From positions 1,922,001 through 1,986,000 of the forward strand of contig JAHQRK010000009.1 in the NCBI GenBank assembly GCA_019828595.1: DNA of 64,000 bases, written 5' to 3'. This document shows positions 8,282 to 21,137 of this stretch, one piece after another (within the stretch, counting starts at the first letter, position 1; the number at the start of each line of letters is the position of its first letter). A model generated the notes under the pieces. It was not told the origin of the DNA and did no database searches. It was given only the letters and a program-made list of their open reading frames with translations. Made by a program: the position numbers and the translations under genes. The stretch comes from Aphanomyces cochlioides. Lineage: Eukaryota > Oomycota > Saprolegniomycetes > Saprolegniales > Verrucalvaceae.

Positions 8282-8407
8282 GAGATGTCCGAATTACCTA
8301 GTGACGATAGCAACGTTGCGTCACCCAAGTCGAAAAAATCAAGTGCCAAAGCCACGCCTCTCCGTCCATGGCGTTAGCAACGTTCATTTGAAAGTTCCAG
8401 GCATATA

Positions 8408-8861
8408 CCGTATTTCCCGTAAGGTTGTCACCACGAATGATTTTCGAAAATGGTGACAAGTCCAAAGGAAATCAGATATCAAACGAGGTACATTTGATTG
8501 GGTAAAAATTAGACTTATTTACCAATCATATTACTACCATGAACACTTCGCAGTCGTATGTCGACTTTACGAGTGGCTGACTCCAGTTTGGGAGAATGAA
8601 AACCTGCAACGCTCATTTGGGTCCAGGTTTGTCGACTGCAACGCATGAACACGACAAATTTATGGCCCTGGTATCTAATTGAGCCATTGCATTTCTTCCA
8701 ATAAGATCTGACTGGTGACAACTCAAGGGGAACTCCGAAAAATTTCATCAGATTGTATTATAAATGTATACTATACATTTGTATGAATCATTTAAATAAT
8801 TATATCAGTGGTGACAACTCAATGGGAAAAAATAGTGGTGACAACCTTACAGGAAATACGG
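8408..8861. repeat. 454-bp repeat unit, left copy (own 27-bp terminal inverted repeats)
   Basis: The unit starts CCGTATTTCCCGTAAGG and ends with the near-perfect reverse complement CCTTACAGGAAATACGG. It is flanked by TA on both sides (8406-8407 and 8862-8863). The motif GGTGACAA, in either orientation, recurs at least five times inside it. An inverted, slightly truncated copy lies at 16545-16962 with only scattered differences. A 77-codon reading frame on the minus strand (8515-8748) is kept in both copies with only a few changes. It may be a MITE, or the long terminal repeat of the 8.5-kb element it bounds. Confidence 0.85.
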
Positions 8862-9316
8862 TATTGGACTTACTATAGAGTTTATCCTTAGGGAAAATGT
8901 CAAAATGTGTATTGTTTTTTTCACCCAATTTTGTATTTTTTACCAAAATCGAATTCGATTCCAAATCGATTCGATCATACTGAAGTCAAGTATAAATGGA
9001 AAGTATGGCACAAATTAATTACACGTGTGTCAGTGTGTGTTTTGCGTGAATTAGGTAAATACTCGATTCTGATTGGCTGAGCGATTTGCACATCGATTTG
9101 AAAAATCGATACATCGCACCCAAATGTGATATTCTTGTGTTTCTTTCACCATTAGGTGTGATTCTGGGGAATCACATTTTCCAAAATGTGAATTGTACTG
9201 TATTTGATTTAGCTTGATTTAAATATGACGTGTGTTTACACGTAGATTTCGAGTCAGATGTGATTTTCAATCATCATAGGCGTTTACAGCTCTGTGCTTG
9301 GCCATTTTGGGTTGAT
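8862..9316. other. AT-rich leader before the recombinase gene
   Basis: No gene seen. The stretch is AT-rich, with short palindromic pieces such as AATCGAATTCGATT near 8946 and CACATTTTCCAAAATGTG near 9172. It presumably holds the promoter of the recombinase gene. A diverged copy of the 8930-8980 part appears near 32800-32850. Confidence 0.4.
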
Positions 9317-11500
9317 ATGCCTCGAAAACGATCTGGGGAAGGAGCTTTGGGAGCAGAAGACGCAGCAGCCATAGCGGCGTCGTTGCGGGCAAAGCGTATT
9401 CGACCAAGCACGAAGAAGGCATATGACTCAAAGATGAATGAAATTCTGGCGTACGTCAAAACCAATTTTCCCGGTGTTTTCATGGATGACCAACCCCAAA
9501 TCCCGCTTCCTAAAGCTGCAATTTTATCATTCTTTGGCAACCTTGTAAAAGGTGCTCACGACTGCGATATGATGGACAGCTCTGTCGACAATCAAATCAT
9601 GTCGTTGTCTCATGTTGAAAGCTTTAGAAGTGCTCTTGTGAATTTCTACCGCAACAAGTCTATTGAGCTCCAACCTGATGTCAACGCTGAACTCAACTCA
9701 TTCCTTCAAGGTTATGCGAAAACAATCAATCAATTAAAGCAGCGAAGCTTGATAAAAGTTGCCGAAGGGAAAAGACATCTGAAGTCAAATGGATATTCAT
9801 TGATTGCCAATAAGCTCATGACACAAGTTCCATCATTGAAAGGTCAATCTTGGTCTGGAATCATTTTTTCTTGGAGTTTCTTCGTCATTATGTGGAATTT
9901 GATGAGTCGTTCAGATTCTATTGACAAAATTATGTTACAACATATTGAATTGTGTGAGGATGCATTGGTTATTGAAGAGCAGGGACACAAAGGTGATCAA
10001 ACTGGTGAATCCAAATACGGGATACACATGTATGCTAATCCTTATCAACCAGCACTTTGCCCTGTATTGGCTCTAGCGGTGCTTCTATTTGGTTATCCTG
10101 AACGTAGAAATGGTTTGTTTCAATTGTTTATTGGACCTGACAATAAATCACGTTTTGGCCGCAGCCTTCGCCAAGTTTTGTCAAAATTAAGCGACTATGA
10201 GCTTCAAGTGTTGGGTTGCCCCATCGGGGATATTGGAACACATAGCTTGCGCAAAGGGAGCAGTACGTTTGCTTTAGGACAAGTGAATGGCCCCAATCCT
10301 GTCTCTGTTTTTCTTCGAATGGGCCAAAGCCTCGGTCAACTGAAAGACAGATATATTCACGTCGGCGAGGGTGCCGATCAACTATGTGGTAGAATGGTTG
10401 CAGGATTGCCTTTCGATTCTGAGGAGTTCGGCGTATTGCCACCTCATTTCCCTCCAAGTCTGTCTGGCGAAATGAATCAGCAATATTGGAATCAAATTGT
10501 ATGCGGCTACGATCAATATCCCGCTGGAGCAAAAACCATCTTTCCATTTTTGTTAGCATCCCTTCTACATCATGAAGACTACTTACGAACAAATCTGAAC
10601 GAGAATCATCCAATATTTGTAGCCCGTGTGTTCACAAACAACCGACTTCTTCATCGTTTGCGTGGCCAAACAATCCTTGCCATTGCAGCATCTCCCATCG
10701 CTAATCTCAAAGCCACCGGCATACCGCCTCATTTGGCAATTGCAGGCAAAATAAAAAAATTGATTGAGACGCTCGGTTTGATGGAAACTCGGATTTGCAG
10801 TTTGGAATCCAGCTTGAAAATTGAGAGCGAGAAATTACTCCGTTCTATCAAAGACGATGTTCCCATTCTGGTCGCACAAGAGATTCGTAAGAGTTTAGTC
10901 GTTGAAGGTGCTGTGCCATTTTGTCTGCGAGATATGGATGGCCTACGTTCGGAATTATTTGCTTGCATTGATGCTAGGTTGACTGATTTCACGAATTGTC
11001 AATATCCAGTCCAAACTGCGACGTCTGAATTGAACGAGCCAGTCAACTTGGAGTGGAAGGCGTGGTGCTGGAACGATGGTTTGATTGCACACTGTGTCCC
11101 TGAGAATTGGGAATTTCCAGTCCTACTCACTGTTAAATCAATGTGGAATTTGTGGTTCTACGGCAACAAAACCTCTGGTATCCGTCCGTATCGATGCATC
11201 ACTAAGCGAGATTTGAACCATCAATATCATATGAGGCACACTAGAACGTCTATCGTTATGAAATCCTTGATTGACATTGCTGTAGAGAGAGCTCTGATTA
11301 GTGTTGGCCCAAAACGAGCTGCAAAAGCAATTTCCGATATGTCTATTGCAATGTCAGATGAACTCTTTGAAGCGGCGTACTCCGTGCTCATCCACAGGCT
11401 GTATCCCAGCTCTAATCCCAGTCGTGAGGAACATCTTACTTGCGGAACTATTTACAACCGCTTGGTCAAGTTCAAACGAAGCACGCAGCATCACTCATAA
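9317..11500 (+). CDS. Crypton-type tyrosine recombinase (YR) with GCR1_C-like C-terminus
   Basis: DNA-cutting and joining enzyme of Crypton transposons. It is 727 aa in a single exon. I take the ATG at 9317 (MPRKRSGEG); the frame stays open upstream without another ATG. An N-terminal SAM-like DNA-binding part (about 20-150) has RPSTKKAYDSKMNEIL. The catalytic domain shows the first Arg in LMSRSDS (Arg 198), the HxxR box in GTHSLRKGSS (His 309, Arg 312) and the nucleophile in LKDRYIHVG (Tyr 346), so all signature residues are present. Residues about 630-700 (ENWEFPVLLTVKSMWNLWF ... GIRPYRCITKRDL) resemble the GCR1_C DNA-binding domain that Cryptons share. Oomycete Cryptons belong to the CryptonS group by published classification; the assignment here is by motif only. 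Confidence 0.8.
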   Translation: MPRKRSGEGALGAEDAAAIAASLRAKRIRPSTKKAYDSKMNEILAYVKTNFPGVFMDDQPQIPLPKAAILSFFGNLVKGAHDCDMMDSSVDNQIMSLSHVESFRSALVNFYRNKSIELQPDVNAELNSFLQGYAKTINQLKQRSLIKVAEGKRHLKSNGYSLIANKLMTQVPSLKGQSWSGIIFSWSFFVIMWNLMSRSDSIDKIMLQHIELCEDALVIEEQGHKGDQTGESKYGIHMYANPYQPALCPVLALAVLLFGYPERRNGLFQLFIGPDNKSRFGRSLRQVLSKLSDYELQVLGCPIGDIGTHSLRKGSSTFALGQVNGPNPVSVFLRMGQSLGQLKDRYIHVGEGADQLCGRMVAGLPFDSEEFGVLPPHFPPSLSGEMNQQYWNQIVCGYDQYPAGAKTIFPFLLASLLHHEDYLRTNLNENHPIFVARVFTNNRLLHRLRGQTILAIAASPIANLKATGIPPHLAIAGKIKKLIETLGLMETRICSLESSLKIESEKLLRSIKDDVPILVAQEIRKSLVVEGAVPFCLRDMDGLRSELFACIDARLTDFTNCQYPVQTATSELNEPVNLEWKAWCWNDGLIAHCVPENWEFPVLLTVKSMWNLWFYGNKTSGIRPYRCITKRDLNHQYHMRHTRTSIVMKSLIDIAVERALISVGPKRAAKAISDMSIAMSDELFEAAYSVLIHRLYPSSNPSREEHLTCGTIYNRLVKFKRSTQHHS

Positions 11501-12037
11501 CACTCATGTATGCCATTTGTCTAAGGAATGTAGTGTCAACACAATGAGATTCATCTATCCATCTGACCTACTTGAATACAAGCAATCCCTTTTTGTTTTG
11601 AGCATGGCCATTTGAGACTCCACTTGTCCAAAGATACATCTCCTTGCTTGACATTTGATGAACTGGAGCGTGGATGTGGATTAACACACCGCAAAGCAAA
11701 CGACACAGACACAACTCCGCGGTTCAAATCATGATGAAGCTGCTTGTCTTGAACGAGAGGATCAACACACCACGGTGCTGACGTTCTTGATGTCACGCTC
11801 TGTTGATCAATACGATTTCTTTTGCCCACTCTGCACTAAATAAATACTGACCAATCATGTGTGGTTTTGGGAAGTGATTCCTTCATATCACATTCACCGG
11901 AGTTATATACATTTCGGACCCCCCTCATGAAATTGACAATATAATATTTGGAAATTTTTCATTTTTGTGTAAATTGAGGTTAGGGCAACATTGAACTTCA
12001 GACTCTGCAAATCGTGCCAACTACAGTGTATATGAGT
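11501..12037. other. intergenic, inside the composite element
   Basis: No gene recognised. Near 12011 there is a copy of ATCGTGCCA, a short motif that recurs downstream (12492, 12594, and as TGGCACGA at 12609 and 13321). Confidence 0.4.
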
Positions 12038-12478
12038 CACTATAATAGTGGTGTTCAATTGTGATTGATTGTTTGATTGATGAAAGAATTAATAATTTCA
12101 TTTTTGTCCAATAGTCTCTTTTCATCGAATTGTTGATGTGAAGACCAACTTGATTGATTGCATGGTGATGTTTAGATGCCGCAGAATACCGACAAGCAGC
12201 GATAGTCTGCTTTGTCCATGGACTTGAAGCTTGTTCACAATCTCCTGACACAGCTTTTCCATTAAGAGACCTAACTCCGATGCGCTTGGTTATCAATGGA
12301 AGCCGTTCATCAATCTCTCCCATCAACCACTCTTGAGCCGTCAACGATTTTGTTGACGGCCCAACGTTTGATTGATGGAACAAAAAATACCTAGTTTCGA
12401 CCAATAGAATTGATTTATTTAATTTTGCCATCAGTCAAGTGCTTTCATCAAGCATAATTGAACACCACTAATATAGTG
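12038..12478. mobile_element. 441-bp MITE with 23-bp terminal inverted repeats
   Basis: The left end CACTATAATAGTGGTGTTCA is matched by the reverse complement of the right end, CACTATATTAGTGGTGTTCA, and both continue into ATT. Subterminal TTGATTGATTG repeats occur at both sides. A minus-strand frame of about 130 codons covers most of it but shows no family motif. No clear target duplication is visible. It is nested in the composite element. Confidence 0.75.
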
Positions 12479-13505
12479 CCGTATTATGGAATCGTGCCAA
12501 CATTTTGTTCACTTTTTCACATTTCCTGACAGGAAATTCATTATTTTATACTTGAAAAATGTATGTAATATATTTCCAGTGCGAGAAACAAAAATCGTGC
12601 CACATATTATGGCACGACCGCTGATTTGCCAAAACTCATCCCAAAGCGATTTCTCGCTTGAGCGCCAACACCCCATTCAGCAAGCTGACGGATTCTAAGC
12701 AGTAATCGCATTGGAAAGCGCCTTAGATATAGCATCGTGCGTAGAATAAATCGAATGTATTTTTTGAGTCATACACAGCGTGATTTTATTAACACTGGTT
12801 TCACTTATATTTATCTGCGTAATCCGCCTTGGATTTAAATGCATGCTCGGACTAATGGCATCACTACAAAAAGCCTTGCACAGTTGTTCTTAGACTTTAC
12901 TCGGACAGGGATACCTGTGTCCCTGTGGACATCGACTTCGATGAATGTGTTCCCTCCATTGAAGTATACCAGCATATTTAGCTAAGCATCGCCAAGCAAA
13001 TGGTACTCGTGTGAATCACACTAGTGTCGTTTGCTTGGCGATATTCAGTAAAATATGCACACTGTGATTTTATGGAGGGGGCGAAACGAAACTATCGTTG
13101 AACTCGTGATTCTGCCTGACACCACTGTCATCAAATGCATCATAACGTTAGGTATTATTGAAAAGACCCAATATCCTCATCTCTTATTTTCGCCTCATTG
13201 CGAACGGCCTCAAGGTGCATATGAAATGCATGAACTTAAAACAAGGACATAAGAACATTTCATTGGTAGTAGTAAAGAATATTTGTCCAATTGAAAAGTA
13301 ATAAAGAGTGTGCCACTTTTGTTGGCACGAATTCTCGAGTTGAGTCAAGAAATTACTGACAACCATTCATTATACACTATTTGGCAGCCATTTACACATT
13401 TTGACATTTGCTTTCAAGACAACAACGAACTTTGAGAAAATTTCCGACAACGGACATCAAAGATCAAGCTATGGAGAATCACATGCAGGTGGGCATAATT
13501 CTGTT
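12479..13505. other. intergenic region with a large imperfect palindrome
   Basis: No gene seen. A palindrome is centred near 13015: ATCGCCAAGCAAA at 12988-13000 faces TTTGCTTGGCGAT at 13030-13042, and the similarity extends outward (GCATATTTA... / ...AAATATGC) to about 12973-13055. The loop itself contains GTGTGAATCACAC. Its position between the recombinase and SET genes would suit a regulatory or replication structure, but this is inference. Confidence 0.5.
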
Positions 13506-14594
13506 ATGGAAGAATTGCGACTGAGGGACGTCTTCAAAGAAGATAGTATCACGACTGTCCCAACATATGAGCAGAAGGAGCGGCTGTCGAAGAAGCAACG
13601 TGTGGGGAAGGCTGGTTACTCCAAGCCAAAGTCAAGAAAGAAATGCTACAAGGGAAAACGAGTGCCCGTGAGAGATTCAAAGCGCGTCTACCATGGTGGT
13701 GTGATGAAATGCTTGTACTTCTCTGATATGAAGGATGCCCCCAAGCCTCGACATGACACCAACGCAACAGAATTGCGACGATCCAACATCGTAGTTGATT
13801 CTCTTACTGATCTGGTTGTCTTGCACGGAGATCATGAAATCAGTTTGCAAGACGAAATTGGAGAAAGCGTCGTCAACGATGAAACAAGCCAAAATTTGAT
13901 GTCTTTGATGGATGAGTCTAGCCAGACCGATGAATCTCAAGCCAGTCAGTTGAAGGCTGTCGTCGCAACCGCATTAACCCCAGCGAAATGGCCCGCTAAT
14001 GTTTTGAGAATCAAACATACGTTGAACCCAAATGGCATCCCAATTCGAGATATCCAGAAGTTGTCGTGGTGTGAGTGTTCATCAAGATGCTTGATCGATG
14101 TTTGCCCAAATGCTTGCGAAAACATGTTTTGTGCAAACAATAACTGCGTCCTACAAAATTGTGGAAACCGCTTGCAGGATGTGAATGGTCTGGAACTGAT
14201 GATTGGGCACCTTGATTACACAGTCATGACAAGAAATTTTATTGTACAGGGAACCGTTGTTGGGGAGTATTCCGGTATTTTGACCACCCATGATTTTACT
14301 CTTGATAAAGGACAAGAAAACTCGTATGTTATGGCATTGAAAGCGAAGTCGAAGAATGGGAGAAAATTGTTCATCGATGCAAAAGACTGCGGCAGTATCA
14401 CCTGGTTCATTAATCACTCTTGTGATGCCAATTGTGGATTCTTTGAAGTCCAAAATCGTCGACATATTACAGTCGTTGTTGTAGCCATGAAGAACATCCC
14501 TCCGAACACGGAGCTTTCGGTCAACTACGGAGATGACTTGTGGTTTACATGTCAATGTGGCGCCAAGAAATGCTGCCACGCGATGTCAACTTAG
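13506..14594 (+). CDS. SET-domain protein, probable histone lysine methyltransferase
   Basis: Predicted SAM-dependent lysine methyltransferase of the AWS-SET-postSET class (ASH1/SET2-like). It has 362 aa from the first ATG at 13506; the frame is open further upstream without an ATG, so an upstream exon is possible. Residues about 1-190 are basic then acidic and lack known domains. A cysteine cluster follows (WCECSSRCLIDVCPNACEN, about 220-250), an AWS-type zinc motif. The SET core shows VGEYSGIL, then the cofactor/active-site motif FINHSCDANC and the ELSVNYGDD box. The post-SET CxC...C appears as FTCQCGAKKCCH at the end. All key SET motifs are intact. It lies between a recombinase and a transposase, so it is probably element-borne cargo. 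Confidence 0.85.
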   Translation: MEELRLRDVFKEDSITTVPTYEQKERLSKKQRVGKAGYSKPKSRKKCYKGKRVPVRDSKRVYHGGVMKCLYFSDMKDAPKPRHDTNATELRRSNIVVDSLTDLVVLHGDHEISLQDEIGESVVNDETSQNLMSLMDESSQTDESQASQLKAVVATALTPAKWPANVLRIKHTLNPNGIPIRDIQKLSWCECSSRCLIDVCPNACENMFCANNNCVLQNCGNRLQDVNGLELMIGHLDYTVMTRNFIVQGTVVGEYSGILTTHDFTLDKGQENSYVMALKAKSKNGRKLFIDAKDCGSITWFINHSCDANCGFFEVQNRRHITVVVVAMKNIPPNTELSVNYGDDLWFTCQCGAKKCCHAMST

Positions 14595-14675
14595 TGTGGA
14601 TCACTGCATAACAAATATACAAGCAACTTTTATAGACATTTACTGGCCTAATGTGCATCGCCTCTTATTGTGACC

Positions 14676-16427
14676 TCACTTGTTGCATTTAGAGCATCGA
14701 TACGACGAAATTTCACCAACTTCGCCATTACTTCGTATGCGTTTTGTTTTGGGTCGTCCCGGTTGACGACTTACAGCCGGAGGAAGGCAGGGACTGTCTT
14801 TGTCTCTCTTGGCCTCAATCTCCACTTCTGATTCTAAAGGTAGAAGAATAGCCTTGTTTTGGAAAGCTGCCGCATATGTTGCCACGAGGTAGCACTTTGA
14901 AAAAGCGTCATGGATCTTATCCAAATCGTTGCTTGAGTTCAAAGCTGCAATGAGATGTCGACAAGGAATGCCATATTGGTCCATGAATGGACACGTGCAA
15001 TTGAAACTGATTTTGTTCACGCGACGACGCAATCTAGTACTTGCAGAACTGTTCCAGACGTACGCAAACTCATCTGACGCATGCTGAACAGCGTATTGCC
15101 CAATGGAGGAGCTCTGGCGATCATACATTTTTCGAGCTGACGGCGTGACAATCAGTGCCAGGTCTACCCAGAGAGATGCTGCTTGGGATCGTTGGTAGGC
15201 TGAGTCAACCATGTTACTGCAAATAGCTTCAAAAAATTGGAGAGGTGCCAGGGCGCGCAATCCTTGAACCAACTGACTTCCAAACAGACTTTCAACAAAA
15301 TTACTTGTACGCCAGCCATACAAAGACTGCACTCCAATGTTAGCATGCAGGCACCAATGAATTGGAGCTATACCCTTCACATATTGATGAACTTCGGAGC
15401 CAACCTCAATTTCCAATGCTGTCATTGCAACGTTGTACTCCTCCACGCATTCAGCTGACTGTATTTGCCAGATGAGATTTGAATGTCGAGGAGTAAAACG
15501 AGTAATTTTGGTGCGAATATTTCGGATGATATGCTGGGTACAATATCGCAACTCTAGCCCCAAAGGGGCAGCGACAGACAGCAGAGCCGGGTGACGATTA
15601 CAAAACATTGGTACGCCAGAAAAGACAAAACCAGCGGTTACCAGATTGGAGAAGAACCACATGCAGCTCTCAATATCTTCTGCAGGAGCTAGGGCAAACG
15701 CAACAACTATGTTTCGGCAGTCACCATCTCTTCCAACCAATGCAATTTGTACGCCATTGTAATGAGGGCATTTACAGTGTGAGCTGTCAACCCCGAGAAC
15801 TCGTTGACAACCAATTGTGGCATCAAGAACAATCTTGGGAGCGAAGATAGCTCGCAAAAATCTTCCAGCGTCGTCTATGTCCATGGCGACCACACTATTC
15901 GGATTCATAGTTGACATTAGCCGAAGAAATGCGGGTAGCTTTTTGTACGATGCCAGGGCTGCTGCTTCATTTTTGCTTGCAATTTCGTCTTTGGCACGGT
16001 ATTCAGTTCTTTTGAATTGTGCTAACGCAATTCCGTCGCGTTTTTGAACTTGATCAATTAAAGCGGCAGCTGACACTGTGGAGCTGGACTGGACACCAAC
16101 CCGAAACGTTGGCATCGCAGATATTTGTCGACGGTTTGGCTTAGCTGGTGCGGTGCAGTTTTTGTGCTCGAGACACATCGATAATATGTACCATGACCTT
16201 GTCTTTTCGTAATTGACTTGTCTTCTGTATAAGCGCACAAACATACTGTAACCTTCAGTTGTGCATTTAAGCACTCTATGCACGCCGCTCCTCTTGGCAA
16301 CCCCCACTGACTTGCTCGTCACCAAAGCGTAATCCTGAACAGCTTGCACACCTTCGCTTGCTGACAGAAAGGTCATGCCAACATTCAAACCATTGTGGTG
16401 GTCATTCTCAGCACTCTCACCTTCCAT
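14676..16427 (-). CDS. MULE-type transposase with SWIM zinc finger, possibly catalytically impaired
   Basis: Mutator-like (MULE domain) transposase, 583 aa, single exon. The RNase-H-like DDE core has the first Asp in LGVDSSHCKCP, and the conserved CxxH after it in YCTQHIIRNI. The acidic third residue sits in TSNFVESLFG. A SWIM finger (CTCPFMDQYGIPCRHL) follows at about residues 490-510. At the place of the second catalytic Asp (family pattern S-D-R) the sequence reads FCNRHPALL, i.e. Asn for Asp, which would weaken or abolish strand transfer. The frame is otherwise undamaged over 583 codons. The C-terminus ends in a Cys pair (YRCSKCNK). It is convergent with the SET gene. Confidence 0.85.
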   Translation of the reverse strand: MEGESAENDHHNGLNVGMTFLSASEGVQAVQDYALVTSKSVGVAKRSGVHRVLKCTTEGYSMFVRLYRRQVNYEKTRSWYILSMCLEHKNCTAPAKPNRRQISAMPTFRVGVQSSSTVSAAALIDQVQKRDGIALAQFKRTEYRAKDEIASKNEAAALASYKKLPAFLRLMSTMNPNSVVAMDIDDAGRFLRAIFAPKIVLDATIGCQRVLGVDSSHCKCPHYNGVQIALVGRDGDCRNIVVAFALAPAEDIESCMWFFSNLVTAGFVFSGVPMFCNRHPALLSVAAPLGLELRYCTQHIIRNIRTKITRFTPRHSNLIWQIQSAECVEEYNVAMTALEIEVGSEVHQYVKGIAPIHWCLHANIGVQSLYGWRTSNFVESLFGSQLVQGLRALAPLQFFEAICSNMVDSAYQRSQAASLWVDLALIVTPSARKMYDRQSSSIGQYAVQHASDEFAYVWNSSASTRLRRRVNKISFNCTCPFMDQYGIPCRHLIAALNSSNDLDKIHDAFSKCYLVATYAAAFQNKAILLPLESEVEIEAKRDKDSPCLPPAVSRQPGRPKTKRIRSNGEVGEISSYRCSKCNK

Positions 16428-16544
16428 CTTTTGGCGGTGTTCCTCAGTCGCAAATTTGGTTTTTGTCGACTCACACCGCCACCAGTGGATGGAAGTGTAA
16501 CTGTTCTCTAACGTGCGTATTCGGATTTTTTCTCTTCCGCACTA

Positions 16545-16962
16545 CCGTATTTCCTGTAAGGTTGTCACCACTATTTTTTCCCATTGAGTTGTCACCACTG
16601 ATATATTTATTTAAATGATTCATACAAATGTATAGTATACATTTATAATACAATCTGATGAAATTTTTCGGAGTTCCCCTTGAGTTGTCACCAGTCAGAT
16701 CTTATTGGAAGAAATGCAATGGCTCAATTAGATACCAGGGCCATAAATTTGTCGTGTTCATGCGTTGCAGTCGGCAAACCTGGACCCAAATGAGCGTTGC
16801 AGGTTTTCATTCTCCCAAACTCGAGTCAGCCACTCGTAAAGTCGACATACGACTGCGAGGTGTTCATGATAGTAATATGATTGGTAAATAAGTCTAATTT
16901 TTACCCAATCAAATGTACCTCGTTTGATATCTGATTTCCTTTGGACTTGTCACCATTTTCGA
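16545..16962. repeat. inverted right copy of the 454-bp repeat, outer end missing
   Basis: Reverse-oriented copy of 8408-8861. It begins TA then CCGTATTTCCTGTAAGG at 16545 and matches through ...GTCACCATTTTCGA at 16962. The outermost roughly 40 bp seen in the left copy are replaced by unrelated sequence. The 77-codon frame lies at 16658-16891 on the plus strand with only a few residue changes relative to the left copy. Confidence 0.85.
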
Positions 16963-18399
16963 GTTAAATCCCAAATTATACACTATTTGTCACCAATATG
17001 ATATTACACAATTAGTGAAAAGAATGTTGGTCAATTATAAACATATTGCAAACATTTTACTCAATTTGACATTATTTTCATACATTATACACACTTTGAC
17101 ATTTTCTCTTGTCCTTATCCTTATAAGGCAGACTCTAATTTATTCTAGTTGGATAAGACGGAGGACTTGGAGATATCGACTGTTAAACGCATTGCATTAG
17201 AGTAACGTGACACTACTGTAGCTTAAAGCTATGGTTGACAGTCTTTATATAACGTTATCGTTGTAGAACTTTATTCTTTTCTGTAGTCGTGGTTAAGATT
17301 ATATAAAATTGATTGGCTAAAAATAAAAATTATTATCTAATCAAATACAAATATGCATATTTTATTTTATGCAGTCATCGATACCTTATCATTCACTAAG
17401 GAATGCCTTTCAGTGTTAGATTTTCTTGCTCAAGTCGCTTCAGGCATAATGATGCAGCCCGTGTTGTGGTTGATCCGACGACACTTCTGACAGAACGACG
17501 TTAATATGTTGAAAGTTGGATAAGGTCCAATGGATTCCTCGCTTGATCGTGCCCGTCTGGTGGATTTTCAAGCCCAAGATGGGACACATCGACGTGGCCA
17601 TTGCAAATACGACCTTTGAGAATGGAAATCCATCATGGAGATGGATGCACAGTCCAAGCCAGATGAAGAAATGATTTTTTTTGGAGAGTTCATAACTTTA
17701 CTGACGGAGACGAGATGGTTGTCAAGCTGTGCTTAAGCATGCGATGCGGTATCTCTAGGTTTTGCCCGTTTGGATTGACATTAGCAATAGCGAGGATGGA
17801 AGGTTGTTTGTTGTTGAGATCGTTGATTATGTTCTCGGACTAAAAATCCGTGATCTAGTTAACAAGGTGAATTGGATGAATTTGATTGACGCCTTGAACC
17901 GCGCCACAGGGAAAGTATGGCGATAGGCTTCTTTAAAGCGGGTCTGTCCTAGCTCTACAATTACTTATCATTAATTTCAGGCATTATGCATTGTTGTAAC
18001 GAGCAAAATTCAATGCGTCGTTCCTTTTAACCCTCTACACATCCAGGATTTGTGAAATCGCACATGCTGAGAAGTTAGTGAGCATTTTGCTCAGTCAAAA
18101 CAATTGGATCTTGTGTCACACGCTCCTTGCAGCTTCGTTAAGAGTAATTTGAATCATCTCGTCAGTCTGCACGAGCGGAAGAGCGTGGACAAACGAGCAT
18201 GATGATTCAGGCGTCTCGACATTGTTGTTAAACATTGACCAATCAAATCAAGTTAATTTTTATTTTTAACCAATCAGATTTTCATATCTTTATCTTATCG
18301 ACTTAAACAATGTTAAGATCGTCTTAAAGCCATATATCTGAACGAGCACAGAAAACTTTATTGTTTTGTAAACATCACGATGAATCCATTTAACAGAGT
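16963..18399. other. intergenic, possibly decayed coding sequence
   Basis: No intact gene. AT-rich to about 17390, with repeats of ATTATACAC and CCAAT-type motifs (17311 region, 18239, 18272). From about 17510 to 17920 the composition is more coding-like, with frames broken by stops every 20 to 60 codons, which suggests an eroded gene I cannot identify. Confidence 0.4.
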
Positions 18400-18768
18400 T
18401 TACTCCTCGTCGTTGGCGTCATTGCGCAAGTAGCGACCGCGGCCACGGAACGAGTTGACCGTGTCCATGACTTGCATACCAGTGTACATGGCGTTCTGCA
18501 CGGCGGGAAGAGCGTTCATGGCGGCATTGCCGACTTTCGAAGCAGCATGGCCAACTTTCTTGGCTCCCTTCTTGATTCCCTTCCACGCTTTCTTGAAAAA
18601 GCTTTGACGGCGAGCTCCAGTTTGTTGATATTGAGCGCCATCCAGCTCGTTGGCTTGTTGATATTGGCTCGCATCCGCGACTTCGTTGCTCTGGTGGTGG
18701 CGGCCGGCCGACGCAAAGACAGCCGCGAAGAGGACAAGGCAGACGAGGAGGAGGCTGGTCGATCGCAT
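18400..18768 (-). CDS. secreted cationic amphipathic peptide precursor, copy 1
   Basis: Small secreted protein, 122 aa. I place the start at 18768 because it opens a clear signal peptide (MRSTSLLLVCLVLFAAVFAS); the frame runs on upstream but has no such feature. A short His/Gln-rich pro-region (about 22-52) ends at a dibasic GARRQ site. A Lys-rich amphipathic stretch follows (SFFKKAWKGIKKGAKKVG, then SKVGNAAMNALPAVQNAM), as in membrane-active antimicrobial or cytolytic peptides. The C-terminus is basic then acidic (RGRYLRNDANDEE). No cysteines are present in the mature part. Two paralogues lie at 19815-20156 and 34142-34483; this copy is the most diverged (extra Gln-rich repeat, no RYMVN segment). 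The membrane-active role is inferred from composition only. Confidence 0.8.
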   Translation of the reverse strand: MRSTSLLLVCLVLFAAVFASAGRHHQSNEVADASQYQQANELDGAQYQQTGARRQSFFKKAWKGIKKGAKKVGHAASKVGNAAMNALPAVQNAMYTGMQVMDTVNSFRGRGRYLRNDANDEE

Positions 18769-19156
18769 GGCTCTGTCAAATTGAACAATGAACTCATGGG
18801 AAGTGCAGCCTGAGGAGATTGACAACCGACGACCTGCCCACCATCTGCATTGAGATGTAGCACACTCAAGTGGTTTACTTTGGCCAGAGTACGGCAAAGT
18901 GGACCTGTGAAGAAGTATTTTGACGACCGGAAATCCTTTTGTCGTTTGTCGTTCATGCGTATGCAACACAGCTGGCCTAGACGAGCAACGAACGGAGGGT
19001 TGGACTTCGCCAGAACCTCGGGATGCTGGCATCGCTGGCATGGAGTACAGTGTTTGGCTTCCTGAAACATGGCAATCGAAAGCTTTGTCGTTGCTGGAAT
19101 CAAGCTGATCAGGCTAGTATTGCGCGATCAGCTTGTTTTCGTGACTGAGTGTGATT

Positions 19157-19814: not shown

Positions 19815-20156
19815 CTATTCTTCATCCTTAGCATCGCGCAAGTAGCGACCACGACGGCGGCTGCTGCCTCGCATTGAGTTGACCATGTATCGGCCTTGGT
19901 TGACAGTGTCCATGACTTGCATACCAGTGTACATGGTATTTTGCACAGCAGGGAGCGCATTCATGGCGGCATTACCGACTTTCGCGGCTCCATTCTTGAC
20001 TCCTTTCCACGCTCTCTTGATAAAGTTTTGGCGGCGAGCAGGCTTTGTTTCATACTGGCTGCCATCCACCTCGTGGCGAGATCCGTGGTGGCTGGCCGAC
20101 GTCAAGACGGCAGCAAAGAGGACAAGGCACACAAGGAGGAAGCTGGTTGCTCGCAT
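19815..20156 (-). CDS. secreted cationic amphipathic peptide precursor, copy 2
   Basis: 113 aa, start at 20156 set by the signal peptide MRATSFLLVCLVLFAAVLTS. The pro-region SHHGSRHEVDGSQYE leads to PARRQ, then the amphipathic cationic segment NFIKRAWKGVKNGAAKVG and a shared NAAMNALPAVQN block. The tail is SRRRGRYLRDAKDEE: an Arg-rich run, a RYLR tetrapeptide and an acidic end. It is very close to the copy at 34142-34483 in the pro-region and tail, and more variable in the cationic segment. That pattern is typical of peptides whose active part evolves quickly, although here only three copies can be compared. It is part of the duplicated segment. Confidence 0.82.
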   Translation of the reverse strand: MRATSFLLVCLVLFAAVLTSASHHGSRHEVDGSQYETKPARRQNFIKRAWKGVKNGAAKVGNAAMNALPAVQNTMYTGMQVMDTVNQGRYMVNSMRGSSRRRGRYLRDAKDEE

Positions 20157-21137
20157 GATACCAATTTGAAAATGAAGTGGCCGATGCCATGCGCCCAAAA
20201 CAACAAAAATGCCACAATCGACAACCTGCATGGGTGGCTCTCGCCATCTGCATGAAGTTTTTCTTGATTTCATTGGTTCGCCTCGATCAGACTTTACCCC
20301 TTTGGCCTCTTGGCGATGGGACAAAGCAGCCAAGAACCAATGAGAATCCATGTGTCGTAAGTCGTTCCTTCGTTTGGAAGTCAACAAGCGACGACCGACA
20401 GGATTGAAACATCCAAACATACCTTCAACGGAATACACGCTTGTCTAGCCACGGGGACGGACTTATGGGCGACAGAGAGCAGTGTTGTGAAGTCAATTCG
20501 AGGATTGCTTGTTTCGTGCCACAAGTTCACCGCATCGTCATCGATGGCACAACCCGCGACATGAATGGAGAATTTTCCACGACTTGTCGTTGCCCATACA
20601 CTACATGTTTGCTTGCCTGGCTCAGGGAAGACTCCAAGGTCAGCGCCGGTGTCGAATTATCGTCTTTATTGGCTTGCAACTTGTTCGCAGCAGATAAAGA
20701 ATACGACGCATCCCCTTGGACATTTATCTTGTTCAAACTCGAGGACGGATTCGACAGTTCTGCGTGGTTGACAAAGTAATTCTACTGGGAGTCCAGGGCC
20801 TGAACACATGATTGCAAAAGAACTTTCGCTCATGTTGAAGACTCTGCTCGATTTCCATGTGAAAGTCACCGACCTACCTTCGGAAAAGATCTCTAGTTGT
20901 TTTCGCTGGAGCTGCCGTCAAGAAATGCTTGACGAATTGTGATGTCTCAATGTGGAGGAAATCCAGCCAAGTCGACGCTCTTTGATAAATGCCAAAAGCG
21001 TCAACAAATAATGCAAGTGCGAATCAATGCCGATGCCATTTGACTGTTGAGAGCAATCGCCAGAGTAACTCAAATTTCCGGCGTGCATCCAGAATACCTT
21101 TTTTTAAATTTCATGCGACGTGATGGCAACTATCAGA

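Follow-up and report, generated by a model that had tools for sequence, protein, structure and literature searches.

We analyzed a stretch of 64,000 bp from the genome of Aphanomyces cochlioides, an oomycete and crop pathogen (the window; C89:1922001-1986000, in an assembly of 76.2 Mb and 94 contigs). In it, a repeat of approximately 450 bp occurs twice in inverted orientation, and between its copies lie genes for a tyrosine recombinase (YR), a SET-domain protein and the transposase of a Mutator-like element (MULE). An earlier note on this DNA had suggested that the whole may be a single mobile unit with three genes. Our results indicate that the stretch is very probably a nest of independent elements. 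Three layers were resolved: a MULE, delimited by its own ends, in which a SET gene is convergent to the transposase gene (SET-MULE); a miniature inverted-repeat transposable element (MITE) of approximately 250 bp, here called T-MITE, which entered a TA within the left inverted repeat of the MULE; and a Crypton, which carries the YR gene and entered the sequence ATACAT within the T-MITE. A further insertion of 1.3 kb and one 450-bp MITE are located within the MULE as well, with the second 450-bp MITE placed outside it. In this way an apparent three-enzyme composite becomes a readable nest.

Layers of the nest and their ends

The 22-bp end of SET-MULE was searched for with up to 3 mismatches. 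We detected 62 sites genome-wide, while the reversed-pattern control gave 0. In the uninterrupted copies L042 and L040 (L numbers designate loci compared in this study) the left end GGGAAAATGTCAAAATGTGTAT is continued by AATATTAGG or AACATTTGG, and in copy L054 the right end is the inverse of the left end. Duplications of 9 bp agreed at 8 or 9 positions in 10 of the 12 large pairs of ends and in none of the 132 mispairings. Further, we found MULE sequence beside 17 of 20 SET-family loci (protein-query genome searches; loci of at least 42% identity, counted and compared by eye), which makes SET a regular part of the element. SET and MULE form a true single element.

Some observations weigh against such a unit. 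The duplication of the window copy agrees at 8 positions and not at all 9, no matching duplication was found in two large pairs (C9:1456679 and C89:681089), and among the small pairs one of six had a matching duplication and five did not. There was no nearby MULE match at three of the 20 SET-family loci (C89:682044, C89:2173139 and C15:621473), and SET was absent near three or more MULE matches with identities of 58-79% (C1:2692774, C45:677496 and C15:775206).

The YR gene lies between the MULE ends but is not part of this unit. None of the 63 other YR matches was located within 80 kb of the 19 other SET-family loci (positions compared by eye; counts of YR matches are lower bounds, with 61 of 729 candidates scored). 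YR elements with their own termini were seen without MULE at L010, L011, L017 and L029. Of the composite proposed in the earlier note, the association of SET with MULE was retained and that of YR with both was not.

We confirmed that the 450-bp repeat is present in two inverted copies, whose arms (8444-8866 and 16540-16962) are 99% complementary over 423 nt. They had been taken for the boundaries of the unit, which we had to abandon: inverted ends of its own mark the left copy as a complete MITE, and the right copy lacks its outer 38 bp. Members of this family were found at 40 places scattered over the genome, the window's two counted (40 of 72 candidates were scored). Between the left copy and L002, located 54 kb upstream (C89:1876493), identity is 100% over 458 bp; it is 98.8% between the left and the right copy, and 98.0-98.5% between the left copy and the six others compared. 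The right copy is absent from L054, where the sequence passes from the counterpart of 16544 directly to that of 16962. Since the family is scattered, a third copy is the nearest one and the right copy is absent from L054, we regard the pair as two separate MITE insertions. The genome scatter, the inverted ends of the repeat itself and the identities to other copies also ruled it out as the ends of an element. An inversion between the two copies, as the cause of the arrangement, was considered by eye only, and the flanks gave no support for it. In another part of the genome (C16:1091816-1112605) we observed four copies of this MITE at steps of approximately 6.9 kb, in what appears to be a large tandem repeat containing it.

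One composite transposon, with YR, SET and MULE moving together between the 450-bp repeats, would account for the similarity of the arms and for the three frames enclosed by them, but it is extremely improbable, as the repeat is scattered and nearest to a third copy, its right copy is truncated and missing from L054, the MULE ends elsewhere and with a 9-bp duplication, and YR is found in separate elements. The earlier note had itself named genes that occur separately and a repeat scattered as a MITE as signs of a chance cluster, and this is largely what we observed, apart from the co-occurrence of SET and MULE.

The 1.3-kb insertion upstream of SET holds a 440-bp MITE with inverted ends (12038-12478) and an 87-bp near-palindrome (12972-13058). 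By eye, its ends resemble GACTC..TCGTGCCAAC in inverted order.

Table 1. Positions of the elements, genes and repeats in the window.
Feature	Position	Strand	Evidence or remark
Left 450-bp MITE, complete (459 bp)	8406..8864	+	inverted ends of ~30 bp; outside MULE
Left target-site duplication TTATCCTTA	8882..8890		flank comparison
SET-MULE, including everything inserted	8891..17108		22-bp inverted ends and 9-bp duplication
Left terminal inverted repeat GGGAAAATGTCAAAATGTGTAT	8891..8912	+	last TA (8910-8911) is the T-MITE target; uninterrupted site in L042
T-MITE, left part	8912..9114	+	98.2% to L106 (both parts together)
ATACAT, left direct repeat, insertion site in T-MITE	9109..9114	+	end comparison
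Crypton	9115..11912	+	98.6% to L010 (no T-MITE there); 98.1% to L011
Tyrosine recombinase gene, 727 aa	9317..11500	+	R198, K225, H309, R312, Y346
ATACAT, right direct repeat (TTATATACATTTCGG)	11907..11912	+	match at C89:1933904-1933922
T-MITE, right part, ends GACAA	11913..11939	+	alignment to other copies; TA copy 11940-11941
Insertion upstream of SET	12001..13344		L041, L042, L044 and L058 run from 12000 to 13345 within ~3 bp
SET-domain gene, 362 aa	13506..14594	+	Pfam SET 1.1e-15
MULE transposase gene, 583 aa	14676..16427	-	D214-N277-E379; Pfam SWIM 8.2e-8; ISCth4 fold 3e-5
Right 450-bp MITE	16544..16962	-	inserted in SET-MULE; outer 38 bp missing
Right terminal inverted repeat	17087..17108	-	two mismatches to search pattern
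Right target-site duplication TTGTCCTTA	17109..17117		flank comparison

The Crypton and its site in the T-MITE

The inner element has the properties of a Crypton, namely the catalytic R-K-H-R-Y set and terminal direct repeats of 4-6 bp. In the alignment of 28 YR sequences, R198, K225, H309 and Y346 were invariant (28 of 28), and R312 was present in at least 90%. TAYAT-like ends were seen in most of the other YR copies displayed. Structure comparison showed a fold like that of Flp, Ndc10 and Cre, where the match with Ndc10 spans only about residues 154-454 and where the second comparison speaks for the families listed and does not exclude others. Pfam gave no match for the window YR protein at E≤1. 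GCR1_C, the domain expected at the C terminus of CryptonF recombinases, was matched in none of the 28 sequences at E≤0.1, and Phage_int_SAM_1 was matched in four of them.

The 5' end of the T-MITE was detected 306 times genome-wide (control, 0). We sampled 60 of these elements and recognized both ends in 41. The TA of the 5' side is part of the search pattern; a TA was also present at the 3' side in 36 of the 41, the exceptions being L100, L116, L118, L136 and L144. The remaining 19 gave no 3' end, and seven of them turn into Crypton-type sequence right after ATACAT. No target motif beyond TA was found in 40 sites (L146 was left out because its flank was too short); the only bias was that G never followed the TA.

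Insertions ended by TATTGT...ACAATA were found in 5 of the 62 SET-MULE ends. Three of the five are T-MITEs, the other two come from different families whose termini are similar, and one of the five is 2 bp off. For TA sites alone and 306 insertions, about 0.01 T-MITEs would be expected in these ends. Without the window, the probability of two or more is approximately 5e-5 to 7e-5, or about 0.005-0.007 if insertion were limited to a tenth of the genome. This is a small sample, and we regard a preference of the T-MITE for SET-MULE ends as suggestive. The bacterial elements IS4321 and IS5075 also land in terminal inverted repeats of another transposon family, whereas here the ends of a MULE receive MITEs that target TA with no motif beyond it.

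Further nesting of related elements was noted. Positions 17887-18279 of the window hold a relative (77-81%) of a fold-back element of approximately 650 bp with TATTGTG..CGACAATA ends, and this fold-back element sits in the left end of the SET-MULE copy L044. At L045 (C67:756056) the nesting is reversed, with SET-MULE near the 3' end of a T-MITE and TAGAATGAA duplicated on both sides. At L041 (C11:855060) SET-MULE apparently lies in the end of a member of the 440-bp MITE family (that of window 12038-12478), and its left inverted repeat holds another TATTGTG..CGACAATA element.

We consider the recurrent Crypton site in the T-MITE as the most interesting part of this study. The T-MITE parts of L011 and of the window are 88.5% identical (86.0% in the 5' part) and represent different subtypes. 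Since the subtypes differ while the Crypton bodies are 98.1% identical, we conclude that two separate integrations hit one site. Other YR subfamilies were found at the same site in L017 and in L029 (seen on the 5' side, as its 3' part is cut short). Altogether, 4 of 17 distinct YR loci with inspected ends, the window counted, lie in the T-MITE site. We counted up to 54 occupied left junctions, 44 of them with no more than one mismatch, and 136 empty sites, while the reversed controls gave 0; occupied and empty sites were counted by different patterns, and the 54 exclude the end type of the window. By eye, six Crypton end types were distinguished at this site.

Ten composites of a T-MITE and a Crypton derivative were identified, nine with an insert of approximately 0.9 kb and one of approximately 0.4 kb. 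Pairwise identities were obtained for seven of them (L150, L152 and L153 were left out, as their 5' end was not recognized). We did not detect YR coding sequence in these seven. Their inserts form three types, and five of the seven end in 28-40 bp that are 85-93% identical to the Crypton of L017. Type I inserts are 96.8-98.0% alike. The left parts of the T-MITEs are 92.7-96.2% identical within type I (6 pairs), compared with 92.8-97.2% between types (14 pairs). Since the similarity of the T-MITEs does not follow the type of the insert, repeated integration into different T-MITEs is favoured over joint copying.

Type I derivatives were also found in head-to-tail arrays. An array on C67 consists of 20 copies at steps of 917-918 bp and covers about 18 kb (C67:2146969-2164410); it starts at a T-MITE left junction, and a T-MITE right junction follows at C67:2165327. 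On C26 there are 17 copies at steps of 936-937 bp, where a right T-MITE junction lies at C26:425763 and no match was obtained for a left junction. The steps of an array on C7 are approximately 926 bp (by eye, among the matches listed). Matches to the YR gene were evenly spaced as well, eight of them at approximately 2.25 kb on C8 and six at approximately 2.51 kb, with a gap, on C45. A different spacing was observed at C41:57654-66864, where four type I derivatives follow a T-MITE junction at exact steps of 3070 bp, more than the length of the element.

As part of the nested reading, we take the Crypton to move as a circle, which its tyrosine recombinase would join to a short site of matching sequence; the T-MITE would offer such a site recurrently. 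Beyond this, we lean slightly towards the view that the T-MITE (approximately 300 copies) is a landing pad, used by several Crypton subfamilies as well as by their non-autonomous derivatives. If circles integrate into a site and the site is re-formed at both ends, arrays such as those described are predicted, and the T-MITE in return may carry Cryptons to new places, including the ends of SET-MULE. This view gains weight because the similarity of the T-MITE parts is unrelated to the type of insert. Three points weigh on the other side. Among type I loci, 18 of 34 have a T-MITE left junction and 16 of 34 do not (this grouping is confined to rows with no more than one mismatch, 72 of 369), so the T-MITE site is not the sole target. 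Some occupied sites may have arisen from copying of T-MITE and Crypton as one piece. Finally, array units were placed by position alone and not by letters. Arrays could also be made or lengthened by unequal crossing-over.

For the window itself, two-step travel is conceivable, though we think it rather doubtful: the Crypton would have entered a T-MITE elsewhere, and the resulting 3-kb block would then have been moved into the MULE end by the transposase of the T-MITE. The block has TA at its outer ends, the ten composites lie at different flanks, and PMC3212892 describes MarCry-1_FO, in which a mariner and a Crypton are combined and TA is duplicated. Such a joint jump is not necessary, however, as T-MITE and Crypton each also insert alone; the seven composites compared argue against joint copying, and among the loci compared the combination of this T-MITE subtype with this Crypton was seen in the window only.

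It is highly improbable that the T-MITE belongs to the Crypton as its terminal part, in which case the MULE end itself would be the target of the Crypton. Several YR loci do have T-MITE parts in common, but L010 and 12 other YR loci have no T-MITE at the ends displayed (the true 5' end of L018 and the outer flank of L019 are not visible), and the relationships of T-MITE and of Crypton are discordant between the window and L011. The TATTGTC...GACAATA block had been a candidate for the end of the YR element and was rejected when end comparisons and L010 proved the T-MITE to be separate.

The transposase and the SET gene

The three long frames reported in the earlier note were confirmed in position, strand and length (727, 362 and 583 aa), as was their AT-rich composition (GC of 0.39-0.47, compared with approximately 0.60 to the left). 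Their families were also confirmed for SET (Pfam), for the SWIM-type MULE and for YR (catalytic residues and fold), but the AWS label was not confirmed by Pfam. The frames had been called intact. All three are open, but the second catalytic Asp of the transposase is replaced by Asn277 in the window, while it is Asp in 10 of 10 other genomic copies covering this position and in 11 of 14 aligned relatives.

PF10551 was matched in 12 of 15 aligned members of the transposase family and SWIM in 13 of 15; the window protein did not match PF10551. For the structural model of the transposase (pLDDT 81), the top fold match was the transposase of ISCth4, which we take to be of IS256 type (E 3e-5, TM-score by query length 0.24). 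The ISCth4 fold and the matches to PF10551 place the lineage among MULEs. The protein relatives P0025 and P0026 from Phytophthora were found, and are known from proteins alone. We calculated the ratio of nonsynonymous to synonymous substitution rates (dN/dS) for pairs that share 60 codons or more and have a proportion of synonymous differences (pS) below 0.6; for the transposase it was 0.27-1.05.

SET-MULE would move by cut and paste through its DDE transposase. The window copy has D-N-E in place of the catalytic D-D-E, and 3 kb of inserted sequence interrupt its left end. Because the second catalytic Asp is missing and the left end is split, this copy is probably immobile on its own. As judged from the sequence, its transposase is probably inactive and its autonomous mobility unlikely.

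Among solved structures the SET protein is closest to G9a/EHMT2 (2.4e-14), followed further down by KMT2A, NSD3, SETMAR, ASH1L and others. We propose that it may methylate histones near the element and thereby limit the silencing of the element. The evidence for a conserved role is mixed. Within subfamilies dN/dS of SET was 0.33-1.44 and mostly near neutral, which weighs against such a role; because most recent comparisons are near neutral, a conserved function is weakly supported. Many SET copies are also fragments or contain stops. SET might thus be a captured host gene that is passive, decays with the element and takes no part in its life. We find this unlikely. SET stays with MULE across subfamilies that are approximately 50% diverged in protein, the NHSC motif is kept in 14 of the 17 copies covering it, and dN/dS was 0.40 in the deeper pair of the window and L058. 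Further, a relative on another contig, P0002, has the same architecture including the N-terminal stretch (38% identity over 94%).

To the right of the nest, two adjoining small genes on the minus strand (18400-19041 and 19815-20420) are 85% alike over 95 nt. By eye, they have signal-peptide-like stretches and lysine-rich later parts, and look like a local family of secreted proteins.

Relation to known elements

The VANDAL elements carry an extra gene, whose product is named VANC. In the cited passages of PMC5735166 and PMC12730594, VANDALs are MULEs of Arabidopsis whose extra gene acts on their own silencing; there it encodes a sequence-specific anti-silencing protein, whereas here it encodes a SET-domain protein of putative activity. 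MuDR families with a SET histone methyltransferase gene are described from Phytophthora in PMC12730594, which cites Repbase Reports 2014. According to that description these are likewise DNA transposons of the Mutator superfamily which carry a SET gene in an oomycete host, with Phytophthora there and Aphanomyces here; the likeness is drawn from the published description and not from sequence. The same source describes, in the passage cited, HarbingerS transposons of Phytophthora that carry a SET methyltransferase gene, but these have a Harbinger transposase, while the present element is a MULE with 9-bp duplications.

PMC3212892 describes Cryptons whose direct repeats measure 6 bp, along with derivatives that are non-autonomous and a composite of mariner and Crypton. 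Our element is similar to the Cryptons described there, CryptonF especially, in having YR with the same Flp/Ndc10-like fold, short direct repeats (6 bp here), non-autonomous derivatives, no long inverted repeats and an oomycete host. It differs from these published Cryptons in the recurrent use of one MITE site and in the long head-to-tail arrays. In the main text of PMC3212892 "tandem" occurs once, in the title of a reference, and "head-to-tail" does not occur. Crypton landing sites, nesting and arrays were not described in the titles and abstracts found by searches of the open-licence literature. Elements of the SET-MULE kind are thus already in print, and the relation between Crypton and T-MITE would be the new part.

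In summary, these results add Aphanomyces to the oomycetes with SET-carrying MULEs. Such a transposon may edit the chromatin in which it resides. The recurrent site provides a natural substrate pair for assays of Crypton integration chemistry, with the MITE site and the Crypton ends as substrates and the arrays as product. If the landing-pad view is true, a recombinase element is carried to new places by an element that moves by cut and paste.

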